Source: Natrinema pellirubrum DSM 15624
Lineage (GTDB): Archaea > Halobacteriota > Halobacteria > Halobacteriales > Natrialbaceae
NCBI RefSeq assembly: GCF_000230735.2
Contig: NC_019963.1
Span: 124,001-188,000 of the forward strand
Length of the DNA stretch: 64,000 nucleotides
Direction: 5' to 3'
Part shown: positions 1,379 to 56,269 of the stretch, piece after piece
Layout: each line of letters begins with the position of its first letter
How positions within the stretch are numbered: position 1 is the first letter of the stretch
The notes under the pieces: generated by a model
What the model was told of the DNA's origin: nothing
Databases searched by the model: none
What the model saw: the letters and a program-made list of their open reading frames with translations, nothing else
Made by a program: the position numbers and the translations under genes

Positions 1379-4261
1379 ATGGGACGACGCTTTCCGACTC
1401 CGATATTCGGTATCGAACGAGGACCTGAATGGATACCGACGCTCGTCAACGTCGCTAGACGCCATGACGGTGAACTTACACGCGATCAATTCGAAGACAT
1501 CTGTCGCGAAGAGTGCCGGAAGCCTAACGGAAGCCGCTATTCTTCGAGTTACATGCAGCGGGCCCTCTCTACGTTTATTCGGCTCGGGATCGTTCGCGAG
1601 GTCGACGGGAAGATAAGTATCTGGAAATTCGCGGACGAATTCGCAAACGGCGAGATCGAGTATGCGGAGTTCCTCTGGCGCGGGATCAAACAGAGCTGGG
1701 TTCTCGCTGGGAACTTCCCAGAGGGAATCGAGGGACTCCGTCGAGTACACTACGTCGTGATACATGCGGAGGAACCCCTTTCGAGTACAGAAATCAGAGA
1801 CCAGCTGACTGCTCAATTCGATTACGAATACAACGATGCAGGTATTCGCGGATATCCGGAACTACTCGTTCAACTCGGTGCGCTCCGTCAAACCGATGAC
1901 GGATACGTGACTGGCCCCAGATCTAGTACATTCGAAAATCGCTGGCGGCGTGCGGACGTCTTCTTCAGACTCGAGCGCTGGTTCCATCATCGCGGCCCGT
2001 CCGTTGACGTCCCACGCGATACGATCAAGAAAGCGCTGGTGAAGTACTACATGTACCGTGAATCTGGTGGCTGGGGCCGCCACCGACAGCTCTACAACCG
2101 GTTTCTTGAGGATTACGTCCGCGAGACTTCTCGAAAGAGCGACGTGGCGAATCCACAGATACATCTCTCCGAGAGCTATCAAAAGGACGAGGACATTCGC
2201 GGCGAGTTGCGGGAACGTATCAAGGAGAAATTCCCGGGTATCGGGGGACAGGAGCTCGGCGGATTGTACGAAGACACGCTCAGGGACATTCTTGCTGCCG
2301 AAACCGAAGCCGAAGCACGCGAAATCCGTGCAGCAGCGAGTCCGGGGATCTCGAGGCGTGATCTTCAGAGTCGCGTCGATACGGTCCGTGATCACTACAC
2401 CCCGCCACCTGATTTCTCGCTGTTCGACTGGCAACGAGAAGCGATCGACGACTGGTTCAGTGACGGAGATTCCGCGCCCGAACGTGGCATTGCCCAAGTG
2501 GTCACGGGTGCCGGAAAGACCGTAATGGCACTCGGTGCTATCAACGAGTGGCTTCAGAAGCACCCGGACGGCGTCGTTACCGTCGTCGTTCCGACAAAGG
2601 TACTAATGCACCAGTGGCTTCGGGAGTTTGTCGATAAGTTGAACGCTCCGCTCTCGGATATCGGCTGGGCCGGTGATGGACATAAAGACTCGCATGAGGA
2701 CTGCCGGATCCTCGTCAGCATCGTTAACTCGGCGGTCAAAGACGACTACCTTGAGACGTCGCTTCGCGACGCGAATACTGATGACCACCTCCTCGTTGCT
2801 GATGAGTGTCACCGCTATACGGGTGACGTCCACTCTCGCGTCCTCGAGTATCCGAACTCGGCGACGCTGGGACTCTCCGCAACGCCCCTCTCGACGATTA
2901 ATCCTGAATCAGACGATCTCACGGAAGACGATGAGCGTCTGCTCGACGCGTTGGGGTCACTATTCTATCGCTTGAGCTATGAAGAGGGTATCGACCGCGG
3001 ACTCATATCCGAGTTCACTATCAATTACGTTGGCTTCGAGCTGACACCGGCGGAACGACACACCTACGATCAGTTCTCGAAGAAGGTCTCCTCAGCCGTT
3101 CAGGACATCGAAGCTCGGCACAGTCACCGTCTGGCAGAACTACAGGGCAGCTATCCGCAAAAACTCCAGACGATTATGGAGTCCTCTAACTCGGCCACGC
3201 CTGCCATCTCTGACTTTTTCGAATACACGACGCGTCGTCGTGAGTTGATCGCTGAAGCCGTCTCTCGACAGGCGATTACACACCGGCTCCTCGAATCGGC
3301 TATCGAGGCAGATAAGAAGTCGATCGTTTTCCAAGAACGGATCGAGCAACTCGAGCAGATGATCGCCCCATACGATCAACGTGATGAAAAAACCCAGACC
3401 GGAAAATATGGCTCGAAGGAGCAAGGGCGCGCGAACCTCTATCACCAGTATGAAACCGAACTTGAGGAAGTGAACCGCGATCTCGAGAACCTCTTTTTCA
3501 GCGGGAGCTATGCACCTGTGATGTACCACTCCGGCCATCGAAACGACGAGTGGAACGATTGGGCCATCGAGTGGTTCCGTGATGACGGATTTGCTAACGT
3601 TATGTTGAGTGTTCAGGCATTAAAAGAGGGCGTCGACGTCCCGTCAGCTGATGTCGGAATCATCCGCGTCTCATCGGGCAACGTTCGGGAGCGGATCCAG
3701 ACACTTGGACGCATCTTGCGGACTGGGAACGAGCCCGACGAACCATCGACGCTTTACGTCCTATATGCGCGAGATACCGTCGATGAGCGGATTTTCGAGG
3801 AGGTTGATTGGAAAGCCGAAATTGGAGGTACACATCAGTACTACAGATGGGAAACCGGTGAGGAAGTGATCAAAGGGGATCTAGTTGGACCCGATCCGGA
3901 GTTCGAACCCGACGTTTCGTCGTACCAACCACCTGAAATACCCGACATTTCCGAACTCGAGCGAGGTGATCCATACGAGGGCCCGCGCCGTGGTCGAACT
4001 ATCAGTGTCAACGCCGAGGGCCGTCCATTTCAGGATTCTGCTGACGGTCGTAAATTCATCACGACCCCTGAAGTCGAAGCAGTCGCCGAATACGTCTATC
4101 GACTTCGAGGAGGCGGTCGAATCATCGTCAACGAAGCTGATCACATGATTACCGTTACTGAAGAGGGACCAGTTTTCCTCGGTGTTCTCGAAGCGGATTC
4201 ATTCGAATATGAGGAGGATGACGATGATGTTCCAGAAAGCTTCGAGGAATTCATTAGTTAA
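1379..4261 (+). CDS. SF2 DEAD/DEAH-type helicase, 960 aa
   Basis: Superfamily 2 helicase. The N-terminal about 300 residues look like helical/winged-helix accessory domains. The ATPase core starts near residue 350: Walker A TGAGKT (K380), motif II DECH (475-478), motif III SAT (500-502). A large insertion carries charged helices (about 560-720), then the second RecA fold with KEGVDVPSADVG and motif VI QTLGRILR near 777. The C-terminal about 130 residues are acidic. Helicases of this build occur in defence loci and in DNA-repair contexts; no nuclease or methylase is adjacent here. It is probably the effector or motor of the three-gene module at 1-4261. Confidence 0.93.
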   Translation: MGRRFPTPIFGIERGPEWIPTLVNVARRHDGELTRDQFEDICREECRKPNGSRYSSSYMQRALSTFIRLGIVREVDGKISIWKFADEFANGEIEYAEFLWRGIKQSWVLAGNFPEGIEGLRRVHYVVIHAEEPLSSTEIRDQLTAQFDYEYNDAGIRGYPELLVQLGALRQTDDGYVTGPRSSTFENRWRRADVFFRLERWFHHRGPSVDVPRDTIKKALVKYYMYRESGGWGRHRQLYNRFLEDYVRETSRKSDVANPQIHLSESYQKDEDIRGELRERIKEKFPGIGGQELGGLYEDTLRDILAAETEAEAREIRAAASPGISRRDLQSRVDTVRDHYTPPPDFSLFDWQREAIDDWFSDGDSAPERGIAQVVTGAGKTVMALGAINEWLQKHPDGVVTVVVPTKVLMHQWLREFVDKLNAPLSDIGWAGDGHKDSHEDCRILVSIVNSAVKDDYLETSLRDANTDDHLLVADECHRYTGDVHSRVLEYPNSATLGLSATPLSTINPESDDLTEDDERLLDALGSLFYRLSYEEGIDRGLISEFTINYVGFELTPAERHTYDQFSKKVSSAVQDIEARHSHRLAELQGSYPQKLQTIMESSNSATPAISDFFEYTTRRRELIAEAVSRQAITHRLLESAIEADKKSIVFQERIEQLEQMIAPYDQRDEKTQTGKYGSKEQGRANLYHQYETELEEVNRDLENLFFSGSYAPVMYHSGHRNDEWNDWAIEWFRDDGFANVMLSVQALKEGVDVPSADVGIIRVSSGNVRERIQTLGRILRTGNEPDEPSTLYVLYARDTVDERIFEEVDWKAEIGGTHQYYRWETGEEVIKGDLVGPDPEFEPDVSSYQPPEIPDISELERGDPYEGPRRGRTISVNAEGRPFQDSADGRKFITTPEVEAVAEYVYRLRGGGRIIVNEADHMITVTEEGPVFLGVLEADSFEYEEDDDDVPESFEEFIS

Positions 4262-7631: not shown

Positions 7632-8072
7632 TTACCCCTCATCCCCTCGTAGGGGGAGAGCAACACCCTCCGGCCTGCCTCGCTCTGGTGGCCGTGTGGC
7701 GTCGACAATCGTATCCAATCGCTGCGGGGCGACGTCTTCCCTGATGAGATGATGCTTCGAACAGACCGTCACGAGATTCGAGACTCGATTCGCCTGTTCG
7801 TGGTCAAACTGCCCGTCGGGGCCGACGAAGAATTTCCGTGGGAGCAGATGGTGGTCGCGACGATGGACCACGGTTACGTGGCCACCCAACTCATTGGAGG
7901 TCGCAAAGGACTCGCCACAGTAGTCACAGATATGGTCGGTCAACACTCCGTCATCTCCCTCCGCGGTTCCCCGTAACGGGTTATAAACTCTCGACCTCAT
8001 CCTCAACTCCTGCTTCCGGTAGGGGTCACAACGGGGCGATTCGTCTCGCCAGGGGTACTCTACTTCGGTCAT
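7632..8072 (-). CDS. HNH endonuclease-like zinc-finger protein
   Basis: 146 residues from the ATG at 8072 (MTEVEYPW), chosen because the leader ends about 30 nt upstream. A C2H2-type finger (CDYCGESFATSNELGGH then VVH) is followed by an HNH-like segment with RRDHHLLP and VTVCSKHHLI. This arrangement suggests a metal-dependent nuclease guided by a zinc finger; activity is not proven by sequence. Backbone gene with its own leader. Confidence 0.8.
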   Translation of the reverse strand: MTEVEYPWRDESPRCDPYRKQELRMRSRVYNPLRGTAEGDDGVLTDHICDYCGESFATSNELGGHVTVVHRRDHHLLPRKFFVGPDGQFDHEQANRVSNLVTVCSKHHLIREDVAPQRLDTIVDATRPPERGRPEGVALPLRGDEG

Positions 8073-8100
8073 GGCTCGGTGACGGGGAGTGAATCTCCCC

Positions 8101-8124
8101 GCACCCCTCTCGGGGGCAATAAAC
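8101..8124 (-). promoter_or_regulatory. hairpin leader of the HNH gene
   Basis: Minus-strand GTTTATTG then CCCC-GAGA-GGGG-TGC, a very clear member of the family, about 50 nt from T-rich box to ATG. Confidence 0.75.
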
Positions 8125-8290
8125 ACTAACGACCCGAAATCGACACCATATACGTATTCTCGTTCGTGTTCGGAAATTAGATGTTAGTTCGGTCTCTGGC
8201 CGGTTCGGAAGAGCAGTGGGTGGCAGGTTTTCCATCCAGTATCGATAGTAGGATGGCCGCTAAGTACGGTCCACTAACTCGAACGAGTCA

Positions 8291-10438
8291 CTATCGTGTC
8301 GCCCGGCGTCCGAGGACGAAGACCAATAACGCCAGTAAGAGCGCTCCCGTGAATGCCTCGACCATCACGAGGAGTTCACCCCAGCCAATCGCTTCGAACT
8401 CGTTGCCACCGAGCGCGAGAAAGTTCTTGATACTGTAACTGAGGAGATCCCGTCCGGTCACGATAGCTTCCAATCCAGATGTGGGAATAGCCACTCCTTG
8501 GCCGTCGATCCGCTGTAAACCAACGAACGGTAACAGAATCGCGAATCCGAAAATGAGCACCATCGAGGTCAGGACCACCTGTGCCGCTCCCTCCGCGTAG
8601 AGCATCGTCCACCGCTGCAGCGAAAGCTTCGCCCAGCGCGTGAACTGGTTCTCTGTGAGGGCGAGCTTTCGTTGCGCATGACGCTCTCGGATGTAGTATC
8701 GTCGACTAAGGCTGGGGAGAGAGTTCTCTCTGAAGAGTCGTTGATACGTTCGGTAAACACGGATCGCATCGTCGAGTTCCGCGGTCTCGTCTTCGAGTTG
8801 GTGAGAGGGACGAACTCGATTCGTAAATCGCACCAGTCCTGGATACACATCCCCGAGGAGGTGACGGATCGCACCAGTCTTCGATTGTCCGTCGGTATGC
8901 TCGAAAAGCCGCTGGTCGCGAGTTGTGAGGTTCGGTTCCAGTGCTTTGTCCGACTCCCCTTCGTAATAGCACATGCGGCCGAAATCCGATTCTTCGCCAA
9001 GTCGAATATCCCGCAACCAAGCGCCGTGGAGACGAGCACGTCGAAAGTCAGTCCGGCGCAAATCACACGCATCGAGAGCAGCGTCCTCCAAATCAGCACC
9101 GACAAAACTGGCATCTGTCCCTGTTACGTCGGAGAGAGTGGCTTCGTGGAACGTCGAATCGTCGAACTGGCCAGACGAGATATCGGCTCCAGTGAGATCT
9201 GCCTCTGTAAAATCAGCCCCACAAGCGGTTTCTGGGGCTAGTCTCGTTTCTCGCAACAGTGCACCCGTCAACGCCGTATCAGACAATTCGACGTCGGTTA
9301 AATCGGCACCTGAAAGGTCTGCATCCTTGAGTGTCGCCTGGTTGAACGTCGCCCCCGAAAGATCGGCGCCTGACAACGTTGCTCCGGAGAGATCTGCCTG
9401 ATCGAACGTCGCCCCGGAGAGATCTGCATCCGACCAATCAGTCGCGCTCAAATCTGCCTCAGTCACGTCGATTCCCGACGCGTCGACGCCATCGAACGAG
9501 GCACTCGTTACCTCGGCTTGCCGCAAATTGGCCTCGGTAAGACGTGCGCCGTCGAACTCTGCTTCCGGCGCGTACATTCGTTCCGCAGTTACATTCCGGA
9601 GGTCACACTCCGTGAAATCGGTCTGTCTGCAGAACGTGCTTCGGAGGTCAGAGTGAACGAGTGTCGCTCCCCGAAGGGTCGCCGATTGCAACCGTGCATT
9701 CTCTAATGCTGCAGACTGGAGGATCGCTCCCGAGAGATCTGCCTCACGAAAACTGGTGTTGTCCAATTCACACTGCGACAACCGGGCGCCTCGGAGAGTG
9801 GATTCCTGAAGATCAGCTCCCGCTAAGGCGACCACGGTTAGATCGGCGTCTGCTAAATCAGCCCCCCACAATCTCGCCTCGCGAAATGAGGCTCCCTCAA
9901 GGTGGGCGTTCGTCAGAGTCACTTGGCGGAGGTCACTGTTGGCAAGATCGGCGTTTCGGAGGTTTGCTCCCGTGAGATTGACCATCGGCGCCAGTGCGTT
10001 CGACAAATCGGCATCCGTCAGATCCGCCTGCGTTAGAGAAGCCCCGGAGAGGTCACTCGCCGCAAACTGCGCCTCCCTCAGAATCGCCTCAGTGAAGTCA
10101 GTGTCAGCTAAGTTTGCCTCACCGAACGTAGTCCCTCGAAGGTCAGTGTTGCTAAAGTCTGTTTGTCGGAGATCAGCGTTGATGAATACACTTGAGGTGA
10201 TCGCAGCTCCGTTTGGAAACGACACATCCTGAACGAAAGCTCCGCCGAGGTGATTTGTTCCTGGAGAGACGTGGTTTAGAAGTTCGTCTGCCTCTTTTTC
10301 TGCCAGAGTAGTATGCCAGATACAGCGATTTCGATCGCCTGTTACTGGTCGCCAACAGCAACTGCCCACAGTTCGACTGTACTCACCGACATCGTCAGCT
10401 TCGATAGTATACCCACATCGGTCGGTGAGTCCAGACAC
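8291..10438 (-). CDS. pentapeptide-repeat protein with C-terminal ion-channel-like segment
   Basis: 715 residues, GTG start after GGGAGG. The N-terminus has clustered metal ligands (RCGY, CCW, then CIWH near residue 40). Residues about 65-480 are nearly uninterrupted pentapeptide repeats (A(D/N)LSG type), forming a long right-handed beta-helix. A charged linker follows. The C-terminus holds a membrane helix near 622-643 and, after a polar stretch, a pore-loop-like segment (NFLALGGNEFEAIGWG) with a last helix ending in GRRATR. The layout resembles a two-TM ion channel gated by a beta-helix sensor. It diverges from the methylase with only about 60 bp between start codons, which suggests joint control. 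Confidence 0.88.
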   Translation of the reverse strand: MSGLTDRCGYTIEADDVGEYSRTVGSCCWRPVTGDRNRCIWHTTLAEKEADELLNHVSPGTNHLGGAFVQDVSFPNGAAITSSVFINADLRQTDFSNTDLRGTTFGEANLADTDFTEAILREAQFAASDLSGASLTQADLTDADLSNALAPMVNLTGANLRNADLANSDLRQVTLTNAHLEGASFREARLWGADLADADLTVVALAGADLQESTLRGARLSQCELDNTSFREADLSGAILQSAALENARLQSATLRGATLVHSDLRSTFCRQTDFTECDLRNVTAERMYAPEAEFDGARLTEANLRQAEVTSASFDGVDASGIDVTEADLSATDWSDADLSGATFDQADLSGATLSGADLSGATFNQATLKDADLSGADLTDVELSDTALTGALLRETRLAPETACGADFTEADLTGADISSGQFDDSTFHEATLSDVTGTDASFVGADLEDAALDACDLRRTDFRRARLHGAWLRDIRLGEESDFGRMCYYEGESDKALEPNLTTRDQRLFEHTDGQSKTGAIRHLLGDVYPGLVRFTNRVRPSHQLEDETAELDDAIRVYRTYQRLFRENSLPSLSRRYYIRERHAQRKLALTENQFTRWAKLSLQRWTMLYAEGAAQVVLTSMVLIFGFAILLPFVGLQRIDGQGVAIPTSGLEAIVTGRDLLSYSIKNFLALGGNEFEAIGWGELLVMVEAFTGALLLALLVFVLGRRATR

Positions 10439-10499
10439 ACCCTCCCTCTTTCCCCGGTAAATGAAAGATTTTTCGGCTGTCAGGCAGAGGACGGGGACA

Positions 10500-12566
10500 A
10501 TGGATCCGTGGCAGAAGCTACCGTTGGAGGAGATGCGTTCGGCAGCCGAATTCGAACTATACGCCCCTCACCATCACCGTCCTGCATACAGTTGGTTCCG
10601 GACGTTCGGGAACCGCGGCGGAACACTCCTGCGGTTTCTTCTCTTAGCGACACTCTCAGATGAAGATACGACGGCCAGCGATCTCCTTGAGTATCGCGAC
10701 GGTGAGTGGCACGGTGATTACGTCGAAGCGTCTCCGCTCACGGAGTCAGACTCGCTCGTCATGGATCCGACGATGGGGGCTGGGCCGACAGTAATCGAAG
10801 GGGCACGTCTGGGTGTCGATACCGTCGGATTCGACTACAATCCAGTTCTGTGGTGGGTGGTTCGCCAGACAGTCCACGGACCAGCAGATTTCGACGAGAC
10901 GTTCAATTCCTTCCTCGAAGCGGCAGCGGACGAGGTAGGTCCGTATTTCGACGCGCCTGCTGAGGAAACTGTTCTTGCCTATCTCATGGCACTCACAGTT
11001 GATTGTCCGGACTGTGGCGACACACTAGAGCTCCACACCCAATTTGAATTGTCGAACAACGACCAGGGGGAGTCGGTCTATCTCTGCCCCAATATAGACT
11101 GTGACGATCGGATTTTGCGGACGTCGGCAGATCGATCTGAACAGGTAACTTGTGAGTGTTGTCAGAAATCGTTCGTCCCAGAAGACGGAAACTGTCAGCG
11201 TGGGACGTTTGAGTGTAACTGTGGAGTTCAAACCGACCTGCGGGAGTATTTCGACAGTCAGGATCGAACACCATCGTATCAACGATACGCTGTGTTCTAC
11301 GAGGACGGTGATGGAAATCGCCGGTATCGAGAGCTGAACGACACAGATACCACAGCTCTGGCAGAGGCGCAGTCTGAGTATCGCGAATCACTCGGAACGC
11401 TCCCACTCCCGACCTCGAAAATCCAGGAAGGGAAGACGACGGGCCGCTTACTGGACTACGGGTACGAACAGTATCAGCAACTTTTCACCGAGCGCCAACG
11501 CATCGCCCTCGGACGACTACTCAAACTCGCAGACGAACAAGAGCCTCGAGAAGTGGCAGAAACGATCGTAACGCTCGTCGTGGCGACGCTGCACTACAAC
11601 AATATTCACGCCAGGTGGGACACGAGAAGGGATTCTGTCCAGACCATATTCCGAACGTTCAGGCACAGCATCCCCGTCGAAACGGTCGAAGCAAACCCAC
11701 TCGTCGACGAGTGGAAGGGATCCTTGAGGAGGGCGTACGACCGGTATGTGGCCGCCAAAACATACCTCGAGTCTCCCTCCGAAACACTACGGACACCTAC
11801 GGGCGATAGAGACGAAATCCAACTTCCAGAGGAAGCCCTCCGCACCGAGCGGATCAAGCAGTTGGCTGTGTCGAGTGTTGATCAACTCGATATCGAGACC
11901 AAAAGCGTGGATTGTGCAGTCATCGACCCGCCATACTACGACGCGGTGCAACACGGTGAACTCCACGATTTCCACTACGTCTGGCTTCGCGAGGTCCTGA
12001 GTGATCGCTATTCCGAGTTTTCGTCGACCCACGTCCCGAAGCTCCGAGAGATTGCGATCAACGAACACCGTGGGAAAGATCAGGCGTACTATCGCCAAGC
12101 ACTTCGAAATGGCCTCGACGAAATTTATCGCACCCTGAGGGCTGATGGTGATCTCGTTTGTCTGTTCCACATCGGTCAGGAAAGTGCATGGCGAGATATT
12201 GCCACAATTCTCGTGCAAACTGGGTTCCAGATCCGAGGCACAATTCCGCTAATGGATGTCGAAAATCCCGGTGATGTGACGAAAATCGACTACGACGTCG
12301 CGATATTCGCCCGGAAGATGTCGTCGGCAGAGACGATCTCGTTCCAGACGCTTCGCCAGAACCTATTGTACAGTATTCAGGAGATGGCAGCCGAAGAACG
12401 GGAGTATCATCCAGACATCTCTCAACTCGAATTACGAACGATTCTCCGGGCGCGCGGGCTCGCTGAATACTCTGCGCATCATCCAAACGTGACTAACGAC
12501 GACGGTGCTGCGGATGTCGACGCTGCCATCGATATGGTGAACGAGGTGATTCGGAAGACCCTCTAA
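10500..12566 (+). CDS. adenine-specific DNA methylase with zinc ribbons
   Basis: 688 residues from the ATG at 10500 (MDPWQKLP); an alternative ATG lies at 10461. SAM-binding motif DPTMGAGPT is at about residues 89-97 and the catalytic DPPYYD near 476. Between them sit three cysteine-rich ribbons (CPDCGDTLEL, CPNIDC, CECCQKSF with CNCG), a build typical of COG1743-like N6-adenine methylases in archaeal modification loci. Expected reaction: methylation of adenine N6 in DNA. No S subunit or linked nuclease is present apart from the Mrr-type gene beyond the IS. Divergent from the channel-like gene. Confidence 0.88.
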   Translation: MDPWQKLPLEEMRSAAEFELYAPHHHRPAYSWFRTFGNRGGTLLRFLLLATLSDEDTTASDLLEYRDGEWHGDYVEASPLTESDSLVMDPTMGAGPTVIEGARLGVDTVGFDYNPVLWWVVRQTVHGPADFDETFNSFLEAAADEVGPYFDAPAEETVLAYLMALTVDCPDCGDTLELHTQFELSNNDQGESVYLCPNIDCDDRILRTSADRSEQVTCECCQKSFVPEDGNCQRGTFECNCGVQTDLREYFDSQDRTPSYQRYAVFYEDGDGNRRYRELNDTDTTALAEAQSEYRESLGTLPLPTSKIQEGKTTGRLLDYGYEQYQQLFTERQRIALGRLLKLADEQEPREVAETIVTLVVATLHYNNIHARWDTRRDSVQTIFRTFRHSIPVETVEANPLVDEWKGSLRRAYDRYVAAKTYLESPSETLRTPTGDRDEIQLPEEALRTERIKQLAVSSVDQLDIETKSVDCAVIDPPYYDAVQHGELHDFHYVWLREVLSDRYSEFSSTHVPKLREIAINEHRGKDQAYYRQALRNGLDEIYRTLRADGDLVCLFHIGQESAWRDIATILVQTGFQIRGTIPLMDVENPGDVTKIDYDVAIFARKMSSAETISFQTLRQNLLYSIQEMAAEEREYHPDISQLELRTILRARGLAEYSAHHPNVTNDDGAADVDAAIDMVNEVIRKTL

Positions 12567-13273: not shown

Positions 13274-13329
13274 ATCTTACTTTCGGCAACGTATTTGGCA
13301 GTTGCAACGTACTGTCCACATAATTGAGG

Positions 13330-14694
13330 ATGGCTGTACTGGACGATCTCTCGGGGTTCGAGTTCGAGGACGTGATGGAGGACGTGTTCCGCAATCTCGG
13401 CTACGAGAACGTCCGCCAGGCCGACCGCACGGCTGACGAGGGTCGCGACGTCATCATGGAGGAGGTCGTCGACGGCACGCGGCGCGCGATTATCGTCGAA
13501 TGCAAGCACACGGGGACGGTCGGACGGCCGGTCGTCCAGAAGCTCCACTCGGCGATCGCGACGTTCGACTTCGACGGCCCCAAACGCGGGATGGTCGTCA
13601 CGACCGGCCGGTTCACGAACCCTGCTCAGGAGTACGCCGACCGCCTCCAGCAAAACGACGACCCACACCCAATCGAGCTGCTCGACGGCGAAGACCTCCG
13701 GGATATCGCCGACGAGATCGGCCTCGACCTCTACAACGGGCGCATCGAGATTCTCTGTGACGAGACCCTACGCCCGTACGACCCGGCCGCCGACGTCGAC
13801 ATGGCCGTCGCGGAGGCGTTCCGCGACATCGAGAACATCGAGGCTGCCGACCTCCCAGATCCGCACTCATCGGTGACGTTCCGCCCGGTGGTCGCGGTCA
13901 CCGCGGACACGAACGCCGTCTTTGAGACGTCGGTGGGCGTCATCCACCGGATCAACGACCGGACCCGATTCGTTGCCCACGCCGAACGCGGGCAGCCGCA
14001 GGTCGTCGACGAAGACGTCGCGACGCTGGTCACCGAGAACCTTCACGCGACGGTCGACCTCGATGCCGAGCAGTTTGGAGAGGTGTTCGACGCCGTCGAG
14101 GAGCGGCGGTTCGGGCAGACCCAAACGGAGTACAAGGAGTGGGCCGTCGAGCGACTCCAGCAGCACCACACAACGACGGTGACCTACACCGGCGACAACA
14201 ACGTCACGTACAACAAAACCTGCGAGCCGAACCGCTCGGACATCTCCGTCCAATCGATCGAACCAGTGTACCTCCCCGAGGTTCGACAGACGACCGAGCT
14301 CCAGGAGTACACCTACCCCTACGAGTACTACGCGGCAGGGCCGTCACGAGTAACCGCCGAGGACGGCATCTATCAGTGCGTCCACTGTGACACGAGCGGC
14401 GGCGACGAGACGTACACCTACTGTCCGAACTGCGGGGCAATCGCCTGCTCCAGCCACATCAAAACGGAGCGGCTGGAAGGCGAGCCGGTCTGTACGGGGT
14501 GTGCGGTGACGGAACGGTTCGCGCTGAAGACGAAGTACTTCTACGACGAGGAGAATCTCGAGGCGTTCCGCGAGGAGTACGCCGACATGCCGCTTCACGA
14601 GAAGGCGATGGAGAACAAGGTCCTCACGACTGGTGGAGTAGTTACTGCAGTTGTACTACTGCTTGGCATCCTCGCACTCGGAGGCGTAATCTGA
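13330..14694 (+). CDS. mrr: Mrr-type restriction endonuclease with C-terminal membrane anchor
   Basis: 454 residues from the ATG at 13330. The N-terminal about 110 residues are an Mrr_cat-type PD-(D/E)XK domain: FEDVMEDVFRNLGYENV, GRDVIM and VECKH, with GMVVTTGRFT. A middle beta-rich region of unknown family follows. Then a double zinc ribbon (CVHCD, CPNCG, CSSH, CTGC), a charged stretch and a single C-terminal membrane helix (VVTAVVLLLGILALGG). The Mrr family cleaves modified or foreign DNA. The start is 57 bp after the IS, so its native promoter may be lost or replaced. Confidence 0.88.
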   Translation: MAVLDDLSGFEFEDVMEDVFRNLGYENVRQADRTADEGRDVIMEEVVDGTRRAIIVECKHTGTVGRPVVQKLHSAIATFDFDGPKRGMVVTTGRFTNPAQEYADRLQQNDDPHPIELLDGEDLRDIADEIGLDLYNGRIEILCDETLRPYDPAADVDMAVAEAFRDIENIEAADLPDPHSSVTFRPVVAVTADTNAVFETSVGVIHRINDRTRFVAHAERGQPQVVDEDVATLVTENLHATVDLDAEQFGEVFDAVEERRFGQTQTEYKEWAVERLQQHHTTTVTYTGDNNVTYNKTCEPNRSDISVQSIEPVYLPEVRQTTELQEYTYPYEYYAAGPSRVTAEDGIYQCVHCDTSGGDETYTYCPNCGAIACSSHIKTERLEGEPVCTGCAVTERFALKTKYFYDEENLEAFREEYADMPLHEKAMENKVLTTGGVVTAVVLLLGILALGGVI

Positions 14695-44845: not shown

Positions 44846-45355
44846 TCAGCTGTCACCGGCAATCAGGTCCTCGATGAACCGGAAGCCGTTCACGAACGTC
44901 ACCGAGTCACCGTACCCCTCACTTGCGAGTACGGTTTCGGCGCCTTCGCCGGCCGCGATGTCGGTCGTGTAGATGTACACATCGGTCGCCGTCCCCGCGC
45001 TGAGATGCTGGGCGGCTAGCGCAGCGAGGGCGGCGTCGGCACGCTCGACCTCGTCGGCAGGGCGGTCGTCGGCGTTCGCGATGTACCGCTGGACCCCGTC
45101 CATCACCCGCGAGACAACCGGTTCGGAGAACTCGAGCGGCGCCGCAACCGTCGCCCAGCCCTCGTCGATAGCAGCGTCGATAGGTGGCGCCTCGACGTCG
45201 GGGTCGTCGACGGTTAGCTCCTCGTACACCCGTTCGGGCAGGACGAAGGTGACGTCGTTCCGGCGAGCGAACCCCCGGACGGCCTGATACCGACTGTTCG
45301 ACGGTTGCCCCATCGCGACGAACAGGCCGGTGTCAGCGATGTGGAGCCGGCTCAC
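44846..45355 (-). CDS. PIN-domain-like protein
   Basis: 169 residues. Acidic residues in a PIN-like order: IADTGLFVA, PERVYEEL, ERADAALAALA and YIYTTDIAAGEG. PIN proteins are metal-dependent RNases, often toxins. Overlaps the stop of the upstream HTH gene by 4 bp, so the pair is coupled, as in toxin-antitoxin loci. Confidence 0.75.
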   Translation of the reverse strand: MSRLHIADTGLFVAMGQPSNSRYQAVRGFARRNDVTFVLPERVYEELTVDDPDVEAPPIDAAIDEGWATVAAPLEFSEPVVSRVMDGVQRYIANADDRPADEVERADAALAALAAQHLSAGTATDVYIYTTDIAAGEGAETVLASEGYGDSVTFVNGFRFIEDLIAGDS

Positions 45356-45948
45356 GCGTCGTCAGCACCGTCGCCGTCGATGGCCAACTCCTCGACCCCT
45401 GCCCCGGCCTCCTCGATTTCGTAATGTTCGTGGACGACGGGCCGGAGCGCCTGCAAGATCATCTCCGCCGCCAGTGGCGAGATGTCGAGGTCCTCCGCCA
45501 TCAGCCGGTGGGTCACCTCACCGCGTTCGCGGGCGATAGCGTAGGTGAGCGCGGTCGCGAGGCCGGCGACGCCATGTCGGTCGATGTAGGTGTCGATGTC
45601 GGCGTCCGTCTCGCGGCGGCCGACGGCGTCGATCAGCGCCGGCGTGATCGTGTACTCGCGGTCGCCGGCGGCCGTCGTCACGGTCAGGTCGATCTCTCGG
45701 GCGGCGTACCGGCGCGGCTGTTCGTCGTCGGTGACGTCGACGACGCCGGCGTCGACGAGCCGGTTGACGTAGCTGTAAGCCGTTCCCTGGGCGAGTTCGA
45801 GGTCGTCCATCACGTCCTGGACGGTCGCCTCCCCCTCCCGGGCGAGGTACGCGTACAGCTGGGCAAGCTGTGGCTCCTCGAGGAGGTCTGCGACCGAGAG
45901 GAAGTCTTGGACGATGTCGCCGTCGGCGCGATTTGAAGTGCGTGACAC
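45352..45948 (-). CDS. winged-helix (TrmB-like) protein paired with the PIN gene
   Basis: 198 residues. N-terminal wHTH (LEEPQLAQLYAYLAREGEAT, QDVMDDLELAQGTAYSYVNR), then a beta segment with RRYAAREIDLTV and a helical C-terminal domain (IDRHGVAGLATALTYAIARE). Position before the PIN gene suggests an antitoxin that also represses the operon. Confidence 0.75.
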   Translation of the reverse strand: MSRTSNRADGDIVQDFLSVADLLEEPQLAQLYAYLAREGEATVQDVMDDLELAQGTAYSYVNRLVDAGVVDVTDDEQPRRYAAREIDLTVTTAAGDREYTITPALIDAVGRRETDADIDTYIDRHGVAGLATALTYAIARERGEVTHRLMAEDLDISPLAAEMILQALRPVVHEHYEIEEAGAGVEELAIDGDGADDA

Positions 45949-46489: not shown

Positions 46490-49400
46490 TCAGAGATAAT
46501 CGAGAAGCCGTCGGTACGTTGCCGTACTGATTTCGTCGTGCTCGACCGCCTCGTAGACGGCACGTTCGCACTCGGTCCGGGTCGCAATCAGTGCCGAACC
46601 GTCGCAAACCTCCGGCAAGAGGTTGAGGACGGCAGCCGTAGTGTTGGGATCAACCCGGAGCGAGGCGGCAACAAGCTCACGCATCGATCCCTGAAACCTG
46701 TCGGAGCCCACCAGCGTCGAGAGGTCGCCGTGAGCCTCCCCGAGTGCCCGCAGATCAGAGAGGTAGTCGTCGACCTCGTCCACGCAGCCGGCCTTGAGGC
46801 TCGCTTCGGTTGCATACAAGAGTCCCCCAACCAGATCCTCACGGACCGACTCCGTCGGGTGTGAGGTGTGCAAGTCGTCGAGTTCGGTGAGTGTCTCGTC
46901 GACTTGTTCCCATTCGGTCGTCTTTGCGTAGCTCGCAATCGCGGCCAGCAGGGCCCGCGAGAGTATGCGCGCAATCTCCGTATTTGGGAAGTCGCCATAG
47001 AGTCTCCGGACGTCGTCGAGTGCCGCGTTGAGGTTGTCCCACTGTTCAGTGCGGCGATACACTTCAATCGTGTTGGCTATCGCCTTGGCTGTCGCCTCGG
47101 CAACGGCTCCATCCGACGTCGCGTCGTACAGCTCTTGGAGCTTGGAACATACGTGCTCGGCTCTCGTACGGTGATCTGTGCCCACGTAGGCCGTGAGCTC
47201 CGCGAGTGCGTCCGCCAACTCGTCGCGGACGGTAGCCTCGTCCGACGAGGCATACAGGTCCTCGAGTTCGGACACCACCTCAGTAGCCTGCTCGAAGTTC
47301 TCGTCTCGAGCATAGTGCGAGACCGCGTTGTACAGCCCGATTGCATACTCCCGGCGAAGGGCTGGCGTGGACTCGGACTCCGCCAACGAATCAAGCTCCG
47401 AACGATACCGCGTGACGGAGTCGAATTGGTCGCGGTTGCCGTAGTCGGCAATGGCGTTAGCTAACAGCATGCCATAGTATCTCGCGGTATCGGTCTCCGG
47501 TCGAGCCCGATAGAGTGTATCGACTTCAGAGCGAATTCGCTCGACCTGTTCGAACTCGCCAACCGCGCCGTAGCCGCCGGCAGCGTTCATCAACCCCATC
47601 GCGAGCGCGTCGCATGTCTTGTCGTCGTGGTAGTGATCGTCGAGTACTCGTAGTTCTGCAAGCGTCGTCTCCACCCGATCGAAGGCCCTAGCTCGAGCGT
47701 AGATGTTAGCCGCGTTTCCCAGTGCGACCGCGAACTCTGGAGACGTATTCTCGCGTGGCAAGTTCTGGATCGTCGCAACAACGTCGTCGACGGCCTCTAG
47801 CGCACCTATGGCACCGTAGTTACGAACCGCATGGGAGAGAACCTGTCCGTACTCGGCGGTGGAAAGTTCTCCCTCGTCGGCGAGGATGCCCATATGCGTC
47901 ACCCACTCGGTCGCCTCGTCGACGGAGACTCCGTCGCCGACCTCGTGAAGGAGCCGCCCGGCGAACCGGAACGCGTGGTCCCCAAGCGAATCGCTCCGTA
48001 GTCCGCCGACTACCTTGGCACGAAGTTCTGCAATGGGTACTGCCGACGGAGCGACGGCCATTAGGTACCGTTCGGCATCCAAAATGGTATTAAGCGGGAG
48101 GTCGGCATTTGCGATCTCGCTCGCTAGTTGCCCTGAGACCGCGTGGATCGTCTCTCGAACCTCAGGGTAGAGGTCCAGCAACGGGCTTGATTCGAGGTCG
48201 GCGATGCCGCGCGCGACTTCGGTCGCCTTCCGCTGGACAGTGTCGGAGCGAGCGTACGTCCGAAATTGCTGTGCATCGAGCACCTTGATCCGGAGGAAAT
48301 CGGCGACCACGTCGTACCGGTGGGTGTACGTAAACTCGGGATCTGTCGCCTTACCCTTCCGATCGAGATACCCAGCGTCGGTGAGTGAATCCAGTTGATC
48401 GCGACGAGCCAGCCCGCTATCGAGAGCCGGTAGGTCGTCCGTGAGGAGGCTCTCATCGGACGGTTCAACGTACTCGTAGTGGACCGCAATCCACTTGAGT
48501 AGTCGTTCAACGACCTGTGCTGGATCGACCTCCGCGACGCGTTGTAAGTCTCCCTCGGTACTCGTCATCTCGCCCACGACGTTGGACAACGCCCGCTCCA
48601 GGGTCAGAGGGTCGGCTTCGGTGTCGGCGGCGAGTTTCGCGAGCAGGAGCACGAAGAAGGGGTTACCGTCGGCTTGCTGGACGATCTGGGCGGCGATCTC
48701 CTCGTCGGTGTCGTACGGCTCTAGGAGTTGGACAAGCGATCGCTCGGTCGGCGGGTTCACCCAGAGTGTGCGGGTGGTCACGGATCCGAGTCCATCGACG
48801 AACCGGGAGACAGATCTCTCGTAGGCAGAGCGGGTCGCGGCGACGACCTGCACGTCAACGTCACGCGTCGACTCGTCGCGGTGCTCCTCGACGGCCTGCC
48901 GGATGAAGTAGTCCATGTCGAGTCGGCCAGCGTCGTCAATAAACAGGACGACGTCCCGGTCGGCGGGGAGTGGCTCAGGTTCCGGCGTGTTTACGAAGAA
49001 CACCTCGCAGTCCGACTGAGCGTCGAGCATCTGACCCGTGGCAGCGAGGAGCCTGCTCTTGCCAGCTCCACCGTCGCCCGAGACGGTGACCACGTCCGTC
49101 CCCCCTTCGAGTAACCGAAGCAGTTCCGCCCGAGCGTCCGCAACGCGATCGGGCAAGCGCTCCCGACGCGGGGGTTCCGACTCACGAACGGCCGGCATAG
49201 GGACGTACTCCGGTCGGGTGTCGAACAGTGCCGTCACGCGCTCAAACTCGCTCAAGGACTTGTAGACGTTCAGTCCGGCTCGATCATTGGGGAGCGACGC
49301 GAGTCGCTCGCGTAGGTCCCGAACGGACGCAAGGAGGGCTTCGTCGGCGAGGTCGGTCCCGGCCACCGCGGTCTCGTACTCTCGCATCGCCGTCCGGTAC

Positions 49401-49828
49401 GCGTCGACCAAGGCGGAGCGCATATGCTTCCTTGGCACCGGCTCGGTTATCTGTGAGTCGACCCTCGCAACCCAAGTGTCCAAGATTGCTTCGATCGCTT
49501 CCCTTTCCGTCTGGGTCGTCATCCACTCATGCTCGGCGGAAGCCAACTCGTCGGGCTCCGTGACGGCAGTCTCTAATCCGTACAGGTCGTGGACGAACGA
49601 GTCCCACGGCTCGAGCGCATTCGTCAGCGGCTCGGCTCGTTCGTCGTCGACCCGGTCGATGAGCTGGGTTTCGAGTGCTCGCTGGAACTCGGTTTCCACG
49701 TCCTCGAGGTCCACCGAGTATTCTGCCAACCGGTCGAGGTCGTTGATCCAACTGTGCGCCCACTCGGACCCCCGCTCTGCTCCAACGAGGATTAACCCAG
49801 CGATGAACGAAACGGCAAACGCGCTCAC
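46490..49828 (-). CDS. membrane-anchored STAND-like ATPase with TPR-type repeats
   Basis: 1112 residues. Residues 1-18 (FAVSFIAGLILVGAE) are one membrane helix. A helical region precedes the NTPase: Walker A VSGDGGAGKSRLLAA (about 248-255), Walker B DVVLFIDDAGRLD (about 292-302), sensor VQVVAATRSAYERS, then GNPFFVLLLAKLAA and a winged-helix segment as in STAND proteins. From about 640 to 1060 there are regular 40-residue helical pairs (YGAVGEFEQVERIRSEVDTL, YARDENFEQATEVVSELEDL) that read as TPR-like. STAND ATPases with such sensors include antiphage and signalling proteins; a defence role is inferred. No partner gene is obvious. Confidence 0.85.
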   Translation of the reverse strand: MSAFAVSFIAGLILVGAERGSEWAHSWINDLDRLAEYSVDLEDVETEFQRALETQLIDRVDDERAEPLTNALEPWDSFVHDLYGLETAVTEPDELASAEHEWMTTQTEREAIEAILDTWVARVDSQITEPVPRKHMRSALVDAYRTAMREYETAVAGTDLADEALLASVRDLRERLASLPNDRAGLNVYKSLSEFERVTALFDTRPEYVPMPAVRESEPPRRERLPDRVADARAELLRLLEGGTDVVTVSGDGGAGKSRLLAATGQMLDAQSDCEVFFVNTPEPEPLPADRDVVLFIDDAGRLDMDYFIRQAVEEHRDESTRDVDVQVVAATRSAYERSVSRFVDGLGSVTTRTLWVNPPTERSLVQLLEPYDTDEEIAAQIVQQADGNPFFVLLLAKLAADTEADPLTLERALSNVVGEMTSTEGDLQRVAEVDPAQVVERLLKWIAVHYEYVEPSDESLLTDDLPALDSGLARRDQLDSLTDAGYLDRKGKATDPEFTYTHRYDVVADFLRIKVLDAQQFRTYARSDTVQRKATEVARGIADLESSPLLDLYPEVRETIHAVSGQLASEIANADLPLNTILDAERYLMAVAPSAVPIAELRAKVVGGLRSDSLGDHAFRFAGRLLHEVGDGVSVDEATEWVTHMGILADEGELSTAEYGQVLSHAVRNYGAIGALEAVDDVVATIQNLPRENTSPEFAVALGNAANIYARARAFDRVETTLAELRVLDDHYHDDKTCDALAMGLMNAAGGYGAVGEFEQVERIRSEVDTLYRARPETDTARYYGMLLANAIADYGNRDQFDSVTRYRSELDSLAESESTPALRREYAIGLYNAVSHYARDENFEQATEVVSELEDLYASSDEATVRDELADALAELTAYVGTDHRTRAEHVCSKLQELYDATSDGAVAEATAKAIANTIEVYRRTEQWDNLNAALDDVRRLYGDFPNTEIARILSRALLAAIASYAKTTEWEQVDETLTELDDLHTSHPTESVREDLVGGLLYATEASLKAGCVDEVDDYLSDLRALGEAHGDLSTLVGSDRFQGSMRELVAASLRVDPNTTAAVLNLLPEVCDGSALIATRTECERAVYEAVEHDEISTATYRRLLDYL

Positions 49829-49947
49829 TGCATACGCGGTTTTCTCGGTTACTTTATAACCGTTCCGGAGGTGATGACGACTGCTCCCCGTGCTCGTGCG
49901 TCAGTTCGACGAGGGAAAACTCCACAAGCGCGACGAGCGACGCGTGA

Positions 49948-50462: not shown

Positions 50463-51002
50463 TCAGTCAGGTCGTGGATCTCGATAGCCGATGACGGCGA
50501 TGTCGTCGATGAACAGGACGCCCTTCATGAAGTCGAGCTTGGTCAGACTGTGCTGGTAGAGGTTATGCCGGTCAAGGTAGTTCACCAACACCACCAGACA
50601 GCCGAACTCGATCTTCGGTCGGCCGTCCTTCTGGGTACGGTACCCTTTCTGGAACTTGAGGAGGTCGTCGCTGACGTTCTTCCGCTCGCTTTTTTCGACC
50701 TCGATGGCGATGCAGGCGTCGGCGTCGTAGAGGTCGACGCTGTAGTGAAATCCCTGATGCGACCAGAGCTTGCAGTTCGGGTTGTAGCCGCCAGCGGCAT
50801 CCCCCTCGTACTGCGAGAGCCCGTCGGAGATCGTAGCATCGAATCCGCCGACCTTCGTGTGTTTCGTCGAGCCGTCGAAAATACTGGCCGGGACAGCTTC
50901 GACGGCCGCCCGAATCGACGCCAGCGCATCGTCCGGAAACGCTTCGGACGAGGTTTGGGTGCGGCGCTCGCTCAGTTTGGTGACCTCCTCGACGACGACC
51001 AT
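50463..51002 (-). CDS. PD-(D/E)XK nuclease-like protein
   Basis: 179 residues from the ATG at 51002. The segment HYSVDLYDADACIAIEVEKS, followed by RKNVSDDLLKFQKGYR, has the spacing of a restriction-endonuclease fold (Asp ... Glu-X-Glu/Lys). The N-terminal KLSERRTQTSSEAFPDD and C-terminal RHNLYQHSLTKLDFMKGVLF are unplaced. It could be a nuclease of the BglII/Mrr neighbourhood. A weak T-rich box lies upstream (51030-51035), with no clear hairpin. No methylase next to it. Confidence 0.65.
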   Translation of the reverse strand: MVVVEEVTKLSERRTQTSSEAFPDDALASIRAAVEAVPASIFDGSTKHTKVGGFDATISDGLSQYEGDAAGGYNPNCKLWSHQGFHYSVDLYDADACIAIEVEKSERKNVSDDLLKFQKGYRTQKDGRPKIEFGCLVVLVNYLDRHNLYQHSLTKLDFMKGVLFIDDIAVIGYRDPRPD

Positions 51003-51133
51003 ACTCGCTCTCGAGGGGTAGCGGCCCGATAAAACCCGTCGCGACGGCCATTCGAGCTGGCCGACGCTAGGATTCACTCACTCAAGGAGTAGGGCGATGG
51101 GTGGGGGCGAGGGAGTGGATCCAGACCCAGTAT

Positions 51134-52598: not shown

Positions 52599-52942
52599 CT
52601 TGTAGACCGGCACGTAGTGGAGGAGTCAGTCTGATTCGAATGTCCAAGAAGGAGTCAGAGAACGGCTCGCAGATCTATTCTGTGACTACCCGACGAGCGG
52701 TAAGTACAGGACAAGCAGTTACCGAATCAGCCATTTATCCATCCGAAATATATCGAAAGTCACCTGCTGAATATAGAGAATGTACCTTGCACGTGACTCC
52801 TGACAGAGCTTGGGGACGTAGAGAGTGAGAAGCTTTCTTTGACACGTATAGAGTTCTTGTACAGGAGGAATCGCCAGTTTTCACCGTTCTGAATTCTATC
52901 GATACATTGTATTTTTATCATTCGAGTGTGGCATGTCTTGAT
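52599..52942. other. 344-bp AT-rich junction before the KAP gene
   Basis: Holds CAGTTACCGAATCAGCCA (52716-52733), nearly identical to TAGTTACCGAATCACCCA right of the KAP gene, and near its end TATTTTTA (52910-52918), a TATA box about 25 bp from the KAP start. No gene. Confidence 0.5.
52716..52733. repeat. left direct repeat flanking the KAP gene
   Basis: CAGTTACCGAATCAGCCA; 16 of 18 positions match the right copy at 56427-56444 and GTTACCGAATCA is identical. Confidence 0.5.
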
Positions 52943-55900
52943 ATGGATGGTGAAGAAGACAGAAATCGTTATCTCTCTGATTCTCCTATCGAAAATGTTG
53001 ATGAGGACGAGTTCCGGCACCAGGAGTATGTTGATACTTTGGAGCGGATGGTTGAAGACGCAGATCCGCCGTGGAACATCGGAGTGTTCGGAGAATGGGG
53101 ATCCGGAAAGACCTCAATCATCCGGATGCTGTACTCCCGTCTTCAAGACGCGGAGACCGATTACGTCTGCGTAGAATTCGATGCGTGGAAGCACGCTGAA
53201 GAATCGATACGAACTGACCTACTACTGAATCTGGACCAAGCGATCGGAAATAGGACCGGTCAGACTGACGAAGAAGGCAATGATGCCGTACTTGGCGAGG
53301 ATAAGATTACGCAGAAACTCTACGATATTGAGGAGGAACAACGTGGGGAAGATTTGTCTGCTTGGGAAGAGGCAGAGCGAATCATTACGGAGTCTCCACT
53401 TATTGGCGGTACTACTCTCCTCATATTGGGTATCATCATAGTTGGGGCTGTGGTGAATCTACTAAACATTGTAGGTCTTGTTGAGATCGCAGATCCAACG
53501 ATTTCCTCGATAAACAGTATTCTAAGTGCATTTCTCTTCCCGTTATTCGTCTCCGTGTTCGTCTTTATGGCGGGAGAAGTACGACAGGCGACCACTGCTC
53601 TTCGACAAAAACATCCCCGTAAGGAATGGTCGGGGGCGTACGAACAACTGTTTGATGATATTCTTGAGGAGACGGATGCGGATAAGGTCCTGATCTCAAT
53701 TGATAACCTGGATCGGTGTGAGAGCGATACAGTCTACGATGTCCTAGTTTCATTGAAAACCTTCCTACAGAGCAAAGACTGTATCTACATTGTTCCGTGT
53801 GATGACCAGGCGCTTCAGAGCCACATCGAATCGATCGATACTGAAGGAGATTACTTCGAGGTGCAACTTAACGAGCGCGAGTTTCTGCGTAAGTTCTTCC
53901 AGACCCACATCCGGATTCCAGACTTCATGGATGAAGATATCGAGGAATATGCCAAATCTCAAAACCGGGAACTAGCGGAGCCATTTGACGACGCCGTCTT
54001 AGATGTAATTACGAAGGCGTATGTCCGGAATCCGCGCAGGATCAATCAGTCTTTGAATCGGCTGACAACGCTCCGAATCCTCTCTGAACAGATGGAGGAG
54101 GCTAACCACTTGACTAAGGGAAGACTCACCGATAATTTGGACTTCCTAGCCAAGATAATGGTTCTTGAGGAGGACTACCCCTCATTCCACAGAGAGCTAC
54201 AGGATGATCCACGCCTCTTGGAAGACGTGAATGACTACTTCCGAGGAGATCTACCGAATGGAGATCGGAAGGATCGTATTGAGAAACTATTGGGGAACGG
54301 TGAAGAAGGGATGGAAAGTGAGACAGAGTTAGAGCGGTTTCTGCGTTCGACTCTTCGTTGTACGGTGGATAATCCGAAGCCGTTCCTCCAGCTGGGAGAG
54401 CCATCGTTCGCAAGCGCGCTTTCCGATAGGGATGCACTGATCCAGAACCTTCGGACCAACCAGGAGGACGAGGTCCGTGAAGAGCTTCAAACCGTAAAAA
54501 TGGACAACCAACCGTTCACCCCGTATCTTGACGCGATTGAGACTACCTTGGACGATTACACGCGGGAAGGTCGAGAAGGTCCGATCTTCTCTACGATAAA
54601 CACCTTGGTAGCTGTCTTTGACGAACTCGGGGAAGAAGGTCAAGAGAATGTTGCCGGGGTTCTGGGAGCATATCTTGTTCTTGATCAGGTGCGGGACTTC
54701 TACACTGATTTTGATCCAGAGGAGTTCTTCCCAGTGGTCCTCCACATCCCAGATCCGGATCAGAAGATGGTATTCGAACGATTTGCTGCAACTGTAGCCA
54801 CGAATAGTAAATTGCGGGAAAACGTCTTGGAGGTGTTCGTTGAAAATGCTGAGGATGTCCCGCGAACGGCTGCCAGAAGTTTGTGTTCGTCCCTCCTAAA
54901 CTTGAGTGATAATGAACTTGAGGGTGCGCTTGATACCTTGAGTCGTGGGGAGGAGTCGAAGAAATTGGCTACGCCGAAGTTGTTGGAGCGTGCCGCAACA
55001 TTTGTAACGTGGGATGGGAGGCGGAACCGGTTCAATGGAACCGATCACTACAAACAGTTCGATAGTCAGGCCCAGCCGCGTGGACGGCAGTACTTCGTCG
55101 AAGAACTTCTCAATCTGGAAGGTGACGTGGATAACGAGAATGAGGATCAGTATTATAACCAGCTCCGGCAGAAACTGAGTCAGTTAGAGGGGCAGGTCAC
55201 CTTAGCTACCGGTTCGCGTTTGTTCCGTGAGTTGGAACAGAGGGTGTCCTCTTCGGGCCAAGATGTGAATATGGTGAAGGTGGCTATCAATTTCTATGAG
55301 TCATATGATGCAGGTACCCGTGAGGACTTTGGTGATTTGGTTGCTGACCTACTTAGTCGATGGAACCAGCGGAACACCCAGCAGATCATCAACCATGCTT
55401 CGAATCAAGAAGTGGATATTCTCGACGATAAGCAAGCTGTGGGGAGTGTTCTAGACCGAGTTCCGGAGCCTCTTAGCAATGCTAATTGGGTGGCGGAGAC
55501 TCTGATCCCTGCTATCCCCGAAGAGTATGATGACCAGCTCTTCGAAATGGTGAAACGGCTTACAGAGGATAATGACCATACGCAGAATCTGATAGCTGCA
55601 CAGATTTTTTCGGAGTATCCGGACCGATTTGAGGAGGTCCAAGATCCAGTCTTGGAATGCTGTCAGCGCCGGATTAGTAGCGCCAACACCAATCAGACTA
55701 AGACTTATCTTCGGGCTGAGGCAGCAGCGTATAACCGGTTGGAGGATCCAGACAAGGAAGGATTCATCAAACGATTGGATTCGCTCTTGTCTGGCGATCA
55801 GAATGACCACCAGGCCTTCGAAGATATTTGGAATCAGATTGAGGGTGAGATCGAGCCGGACCGGAAGATGACTGTAGCCAGAAATCTTCGGAGTCAATTG

Positions 55901-56269
55901 CGGTCGGAGCTTTCAGGGAACCCTCAGCATAACCGACTCTTCCCGTTGGTTGATGTCCTCAGTTCGCTTGTCCAGACGGGAGATGTTGATGAGGATGATG
56001 GCGAGTGGGTGGTTGAACGTCTTTCCGATACATTCGAAGGGAGCAATTTGCACAACAACCATGTTTCGACCCTTATCGACAAGCTGGCAGAGTTCCCCGA
56101 ATACTACGGTAGAGAGGAGCAGACCTTGACACGGCTTGAGAGCCTGATCGGGAACAATAATAACAACCGGATCCACCAAAGCGCTAAGAATCTAATCGAC
56201 GCCTTGGAGAAAACCGGGGAAGTTGATGGAAATAGGTTGGAAGAGGCCCGAGAACGTCTGAGATCATAG
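52943..56269 (+). CDS. KAP-family P-loop NTPase, 1108 aa
   Basis: ATG at 52943, with TATTTTTA centred about 28 bp upstream, so leaderless. Walker A FGEWGSGKTSIIRML (about 50-57); two membrane helices inserted between the Walker motifs (LIGGTTLLILGIIIVGAVV and LSAFLFPLFVSVFVFMAG, about 151-213), a KAP hallmark; Walker B KVLISIDNLDRCES (about 249-259). The C-terminal about 700 residues are helical and unlike known domains. Codon use is AT-richer than the neighbours, indicating transfer. KAP NTPases are membrane-associated and appear in several phage-defence loci; the role here is inferred. Confidence 0.9.
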   Translation: MDGEEDRNRYLSDSPIENVDEDEFRHQEYVDTLERMVEDADPPWNIGVFGEWGSGKTSIIRMLYSRLQDAETDYVCVEFDAWKHAEESIRTDLLLNLDQAIGNRTGQTDEEGNDAVLGEDKITQKLYDIEEEQRGEDLSAWEEAERIITESPLIGGTTLLILGIIIVGAVVNLLNIVGLVEIADPTISSINSILSAFLFPLFVSVFVFMAGEVRQATTALRQKHPRKEWSGAYEQLFDDILEETDADKVLISIDNLDRCESDTVYDVLVSLKTFLQSKDCIYIVPCDDQALQSHIESIDTEGDYFEVQLNEREFLRKFFQTHIRIPDFMDEDIEEYAKSQNRELAEPFDDAVLDVITKAYVRNPRRINQSLNRLTTLRILSEQMEEANHLTKGRLTDNLDFLAKIMVLEEDYPSFHRELQDDPRLLEDVNDYFRGDLPNGDRKDRIEKLLGNGEEGMESETELERFLRSTLRCTVDNPKPFLQLGEPSFASALSDRDALIQNLRTNQEDEVREELQTVKMDNQPFTPYLDAIETTLDDYTREGREGPIFSTINTLVAVFDELGEEGQENVAGVLGAYLVLDQVRDFYTDFDPEEFFPVVLHIPDPDQKMVFERFAATVATNSKLRENVLEVFVENAEDVPRTAARSLCSSLLNLSDNELEGALDTLSRGEESKKLATPKLLERAATFVTWDGRRNRFNGTDHYKQFDSQAQPRGRQYFVEELLNLEGDVDNENEDQYYNQLRQKLSQLEGQVTLATGSRLFRELEQRVSSSGQDVNMVKVAINFYESYDAGTREDFGDLVADLLSRWNQRNTQQIINHASNQEVDILDDKQAVGSVLDRVPEPLSNANWVAETLIPAIPEEYDDQLFEMVKRLTEDNDHTQNLIAAQIFSEYPDRFEEVQDPVLECCQRRISSANTNQTKTYLRAEAAAYNRLEDPDKEGFIKRLDSLLSGDQNDHQAFEDIWNQIEGEIEPDRKMTVARNLRSQLRSELSGNPQHNRLFPLVDVLSSLVQTGDVDEDDGEWVVERLSDTFEGSNLHNNHVSTLIDKLAEFPEYYGREEQTLTRLESLIGNNNNNRIHQSAKNLIDALEKTGEVDGNRLEEARERLRS

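Follow-up and report, generated by a model that had tools for sequence, protein, structure and literature searches.

A STAND-type NTPase with a conserved helical N-terminal domain and a long repeat array in Natrinema pellirubrum, a possible defence sensor of haloarchaea

The window analyzed in this study is a stretch of 64,000 nucleotides from Natrinema pellirubrum DSM 15624. A single uninterrupted open reading frame on its minus strand (46490-49828) codes for a protein of 1112 amino acids, and its coordinates are exactly those given in the initial annotation. The gene is present in a single copy in the 4.35-Mb genome of the host and sits on a contig of 275.8 kb. The start codon is GTG at position 49828, and TTATAAA is read 24 nt upstream of it. 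In leaderless transcripts of haloarchaea, a TATA box at such a distance from the start is fitting, and the GTG start is thus supported. The features of the gene are as follows.

46490-49828, minus strand: whole gene, 1112-aa STAND-type sensor
49853-49859, minus strand: TATA box TTATAAA, a consensus match only
49289-49828, minus strand: N-domain, residues 1-180, all-helical and family-defining (from alignments, profile matches and the model)
49775-49825, minus strand: hydrophobic N-terminal helix, residues 2-18, of marginal hydrophobicity (the membrane helix of the initial annotation)
48569-49150, minus strand: P-loop NTPase, residues 227-420, from a weak PF25199 match and the model; boundaries approximate
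49055-49078, minus strand: Walker A GDGGAGKS, residues 251-258, with positions invariant in the alignment
48932-48952, minus strand: Walker B VVLFIDD, residues 293-299, with D299 invariant
48830-48832, minus strand: sensor-type Arg333, nearly invariant
48656-48667, minus strand: GNPF, residues 388-391, GxP-like motif
47879-48568, minus strand: helical or winged-helix-like region, residues 421-650, with HRYD at 503-506; low model confidence
46718-47878, minus strand: about nine 43-residue helical-hairpin repeats, residues 651-1037, putative sensor
46493-46717, minus strand: C-terminal helical cap, residues 1038-1112, from the model

The query carries the NTPase motifs GDGGAGKS at 251, VVLFIDD at 293, Arg333, GNPF at 388 and HRYD at 503. 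Among 12 aligned members of its family, G251, G254, G256, K257 and D299 are invariant, and the predicted structure shows an alpha/beta P-loop fold with pLDDT values of about 70-87 across most of residues 230-360. GNPF is placed where a GxP motif would be expected. In the alignment, HRYD corresponds to MHD, VHD and LHD in relatives, a position at which STAND proteins should have their winged-helix histidine, and it lies within residues 421-650, which are poorly modelled (pLDDT about 35-55). The Pfam family nSTAND_NTPase5 (PF25199) matches the query with an E value of 3e-5 and 24.3 bits, below the cut-off of 34 bits, whereas five of the eight relatives examined pass that cut-off with 43-55 bits.

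The C-terminal part shows a periodicity of 43 residues, with an autocorrelation of 0.45 against a maximum of -0.34 over 300 shuffles. About nine units were modelled as helical hairpins, mostly with pLDDT values of 70-90. Pfam called no TPR in the query but called TPR families strongly in all eight relatives examined, so that "TPR-like", the label of the initial annotation for this long helical array, is a fair one. Walker A and Walker B motifs and C-terminal repeats that form a superstructure are both features of the STAND superfamily. We therefore regard the STAND-type architecture as nearly certain; the earlier reading of the protein as a STAND sensor with a P-loop NTPase is well supported by the motifs, the repeats and the matches of the relatives to nSTAND_NTPase5 and TPR.

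The N-domain was predicted to be all-helical in an AF2 model of residues 1-215 (mean pLDDT 73.7). The confidence was 76-92 per ten-residue block in residues 41-160 and about 51-61 in residues 1-40. In the alignment of relatives, the near-invariant positions of the domain are F48, L52, W75 and F151, all of which are hydrophobic or aromatic, and no conserved residue set of catalytic type was found. Pfam recognised neither an effector domain nor an enzymatic family in this part, and a PDB profile search gave no convincing match. The fold search with the model gave a best Foldseek E value of 0.28 and a best VIA Z of 4.6, with no pore-forming fold; HeLo, MLKL and plant CC domains were absent among the fold matches listed, an absence that does not exclude them. 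The structure prediction proposed earlier for the N-terminal part gave a helical domain of no recognised family, with no membrane-effector fold among the matches listed. Judged from its sequence, the N-domain appears to be an uncharacterised family.

The hydrophobic stretch at the extreme N-terminus (residues 2-18) is short and rich in Gly and Ala. Its KD19 value in the query is 1.54, and the usual transmembrane cut is 1.6. Relatives with an intact start have values of 0.72-1.85, and only two of them exceed 1.6; the stretch is marginal on two hydrophobicity scales, in the query and the relatives alike. The N-terminal membrane helix of the initial annotation is therefore not upheld, and we rejected a constitutive membrane anchor because the hydrophobicity is below the usual cut.

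When 391 Halobacteria genomes were searched directly with the query, the matches were weak and fell into two separate groups. Those to relatives with the N-domain and P-loop end by residue 376, and those to repeat-only proteins span residues 596-1052. Four of the latter (L042 7888-10938, L043 7685-10681, L044 5791-12813 and L045 2843-5680) consist almost wholly of helical repeats of about 43 residues of the query type, reach up to 2340 aa, and in some cases match DUF6584. With an N-domain profile, strong matches (E <1e-16) were obtained in 20 of the 391 genomes; the family is spread over about 15 genera and four families, and a single genome can have as many as three full matches. None of 20 genomes of the host's congeners had it, and in a phylum-wide sample strong matches occurred only in genomes of the host's own order. 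With the query, no homologue was found when GTDB contigs and viral contigs were scanned or when plasmids were searched by tblastn; a scan with the relative L033 gave a match only in Halomicroarcula sp. SYNS111 and none in viral contigs. No publication describing the N-domain family was found in the open-licence literature. Apparently, this is a small and previously undescribed family of haloarchaeal STAND sensors with a new N-domain.

In the aligned full-length relatives, a P-loop NTPase follows the N-domain. The arrays behind it are of different types, with 43-aa repeats in the query and 40-aa TPR in other members. Since the same N-domain and NTPase are joined to different repeat arrays, we think that a constant front end is combined with exchangeable arrays, and the best reading is that the output and switch would be constant and the sensor variable, as in NLRs. 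Repeats of 120 bp were found at the DNA level in L035 and L032 (87-90% alike) and in L033 (71%), and none in the query's own array. Such near-identical DNA repeats show that the arrays of the relatives have turned over recently.

The neighbourhoods of 23 members share no partner gene, and the search across member loci for a conserved operon partner found none. The members are surrounded by housekeeping genes, transposases, TnpB, Cdc6, pentapeptide proteins and some defence-like genes; PADLOC matches of neighbours to TnpB/Cas12f or generic AAA were not counted toward defence. The search for homologues in defence islands proposed earlier showed only partial clustering with defence genes: some neighbours are defence-like, and several relatives are adjoined by housekeeping genes and lie outside defence islands. 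At the G172 locus, a family gene of 5.3 kb lies between the genes for alanyl-tRNA synthetase and a replication-factor-C-like AAA protein. The gene is absent from the same junction in all ten congeners of G172, and in at least four of them the two flanking genes are only about 100-130 bp apart. Truncated or frameshifted copies were found at L037, L079 and L086. The copy at L079 is otherwise long, but the frame of its N-domain is interrupted near residue 35 (8492-8600), which may be due to decay, phase variation or sequencing error. With its single-gene insertion, patchy spread and decayed copies, the family gene behaves as an accessory one that is turning over, not as a housekeeping gene. The conserved housekeeping context that would have counted against a defence role was not seen; the contexts vary.

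Two observations were made on single neighbours. In one genus, the members L090 (6692-11263) and L091 (6448-10805) have the same upstream neighbour, of 608 and 537 aa respectively, encoded on the same strand at a distance of about 50 bp. A radical-SAM protein is encoded just upstream of L035 on the same strand (7891-8940, plus strand) and matches pVip; a viperin partner was rejected, because this similarity is weak (2e-11, covering about 90 residues) and did not recur at any other locus examined.

The full-length model was compared with known structures using Foldseek. The top match was the complex of Avs4 with a phage portal (8dgf, E 2.3e-5), and the archaeal STAND-TPR protein PH0952 (6mfv, E 9.6e-5) and EfAvs5 (9jap) were also listed. 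However, the TM-scores obtained with Avs4 and PH0952 were low, at 0.11-0.28, and unrelated superhelices such as importins and APC/C subunits reached similar scores; these matches therefore support the architecture only, and the match to the Avs4-portal structure says nothing on the ligand of the query. No PADLOC family, the Avs models included, matches the query at E values up to 1, and 6mfv gave no sequence match among the best 60 PDB matches listed for the family profile. The Avs (AVAST) proteins such as Avs4 share with the query an N-terminal output domain, a STAND NTPase and a C-terminal superhelical array. In contrast to them, the query has no recognised nuclease, SIR2 or other effector domain, its repeats are of a different class, and among the genomes sampled its family occurs in Halobacteria only. 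Proteins of the PH0952/MalT type, of which PH0952 is archaeal, likewise combine a STAND NTPase with a TPR-like superhelix, but the N-domain of the query differs and the TM-score is low. The membrane-acting domains of fungal HeLo/HELL, bacterial BELL, animal MLKL and plant CC-NLR proteins resemble the N-domain in being helical, with a hydrophobic helix at the extreme N-terminus, and in being linked to a STAND/NLR switch or driven by one; the HeLo-type domains expose that helix (PMC7889193). No sequence or fold match to these domains was listed for the N-domain, and the resemblance is one of design only.

We consider that a role in conflict or defence is probable for this gene. Since no partner gene recurs across the loci, the N-domain itself is likely to be the output, and its hydrophobic or aromatic near-invariant residues, with no enzymatic family recognised, favour a structural output, either membrane action or an adaptor function. 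The persistence of the hydrophobic N-terminus across relatives and the lack of a partner gene tilt us toward membrane action, which is by analogy the leading mechanism. Our confidence in it is low because of the absent fold match and the sub-threshold hydrophobicity, so that we would call it possible rather than likely. Taken comprehensively, the explanation we favour, tentatively and at somewhat less than an even chance, is a stand-alone accessory defence sensor of the NLR/Avs kind, in which the N-domain would serve as its own non-enzymatic effector, acting most plausibly on the membrane.

Other explanations should be weighed against it. The conserved, all-helical and non-enzymatic-looking N-domain would also suit a signalling adaptor of the effector-associated or death-like type, with the oligomer recruiting a separately encoded effector. 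N-terminal adaptor domains are common in bacterial STAND proteins (PMC8195603), and the same-genus pair L090/L091 retains an adjacent gene; however, no neighbour recurs among the other members, and around these no relatives of the genes next to the query were found, so that we think an adaptor unlikely, if realistic. The housekeeping genes around some relatives could instead point to a regulatory, non-immune STAND protein, whose repeats would sense a metabolite or cell protein and whose N-domain would control transcription, trafficking or stress. There are metabolic regulators among STAND-TPR proteins, such as MalT for maltose (PMC6468293). Nevertheless, no DNA-binding or catalytic output domain was recognised, and a patchy distribution of 5%, single-gene insertion and decayed copies are ill-suited to the control of core metabolism, which makes a regulator rather unlikely. 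The same patchiness, and the location of the query on a replicon of 275.8 kb with many mobile elements, would agree with a selfish gene for plasmid maintenance or inter-strain conflict (addiction or allorecognition), using a STAND switch for purposes other than antiviral ones. Most relatives found are single genes on large chromosomal contigs without an antidote-like partner, and this explanation seems improbable to us.

The favoured reading, a stand-alone defence sensor, can be considered as a mechanism as follows. STAND proteins are closed with ADP at rest and multimerise upon ligand binding, and in TPR-type members contacts between sensor and NTPase add to autoinhibition (PMC6468293). By this established biology, the NTPase of the query would hold ADP at rest while the repeat array keeps the protein closed. 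Binding of a viral or mobile-element protein to the array would open the protein, and ATP loading and oligomerisation of the protomers would follow. The clustered N-domains might then disturb the host membrane with their hydrophobic N-terminal helices, which is the most speculative step, and the disturbance would lead to altruistic death or dormancy. In a broader form, which we find unlikely, the family would be an archaeal lineage-specific group of NLRs with a previously undescribed helical executioner domain, whose glycine-rich N-terminal helix would be buried in the resting protein and enter the archaeal membrane on oligomerisation; it would be convergent with plant CC-NLR resistosomes and fungal HeLo receptors, and would swap its sensors between repeat classes.

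Apart from CRISPR and restriction, the immune systems of archaea are poorly charted; in a 2026 survey, nearly one third of archaeal genomes had no other detected systems (PMC12988326). The PADLOC models do not detect the present STAND family, which with its N-domain is a candidate for an NLR of archaea that has its own output domain. If the N-domain does act on membranes, receptor-driven membrane killing would extend to archaea, and such action is testable in Haloferax, which is genetically tractable.

Several other genes of the window deserve mention. On the minus strand, an overlapping pair at 44846-45948, consisting of a DUF7437/TrmB-type HTH gene and a gene for a 169-aa protein, is toxin-antitoxin-like; the 169-aa protein has no Pfam match and looks PIN-like to the eye. 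A 204-aa orphan at 50463-51077 (minus strand) was matched by neither Pfam nor PADLOC and has no relatives in the vicinity of other members of the STAND family; its EVEK motif is reminiscent of PD-(D/E)XK nucleases. Possible defence genes lie at the opposite end of the window, within its first 15 kb: a PbeA-like helicase (1379-4261), an HmaB/DUF1156-like methylase (10461-12566) and an Mrr-like gene (PDC-S02; 13324-14694), all on the plus strand. The defence-like genes of the window are suggestive, without forming a tight island. One of them, 3 kb from the STAND gene, encodes a 1120-aa KAP-family NTPase (52907-56269, plus strand) with PADLOC matches to QatA, PDC-S20 and PifA; it has a hydrophobic insert that probably spans the membrane, and is a candidate second defence NTPase.
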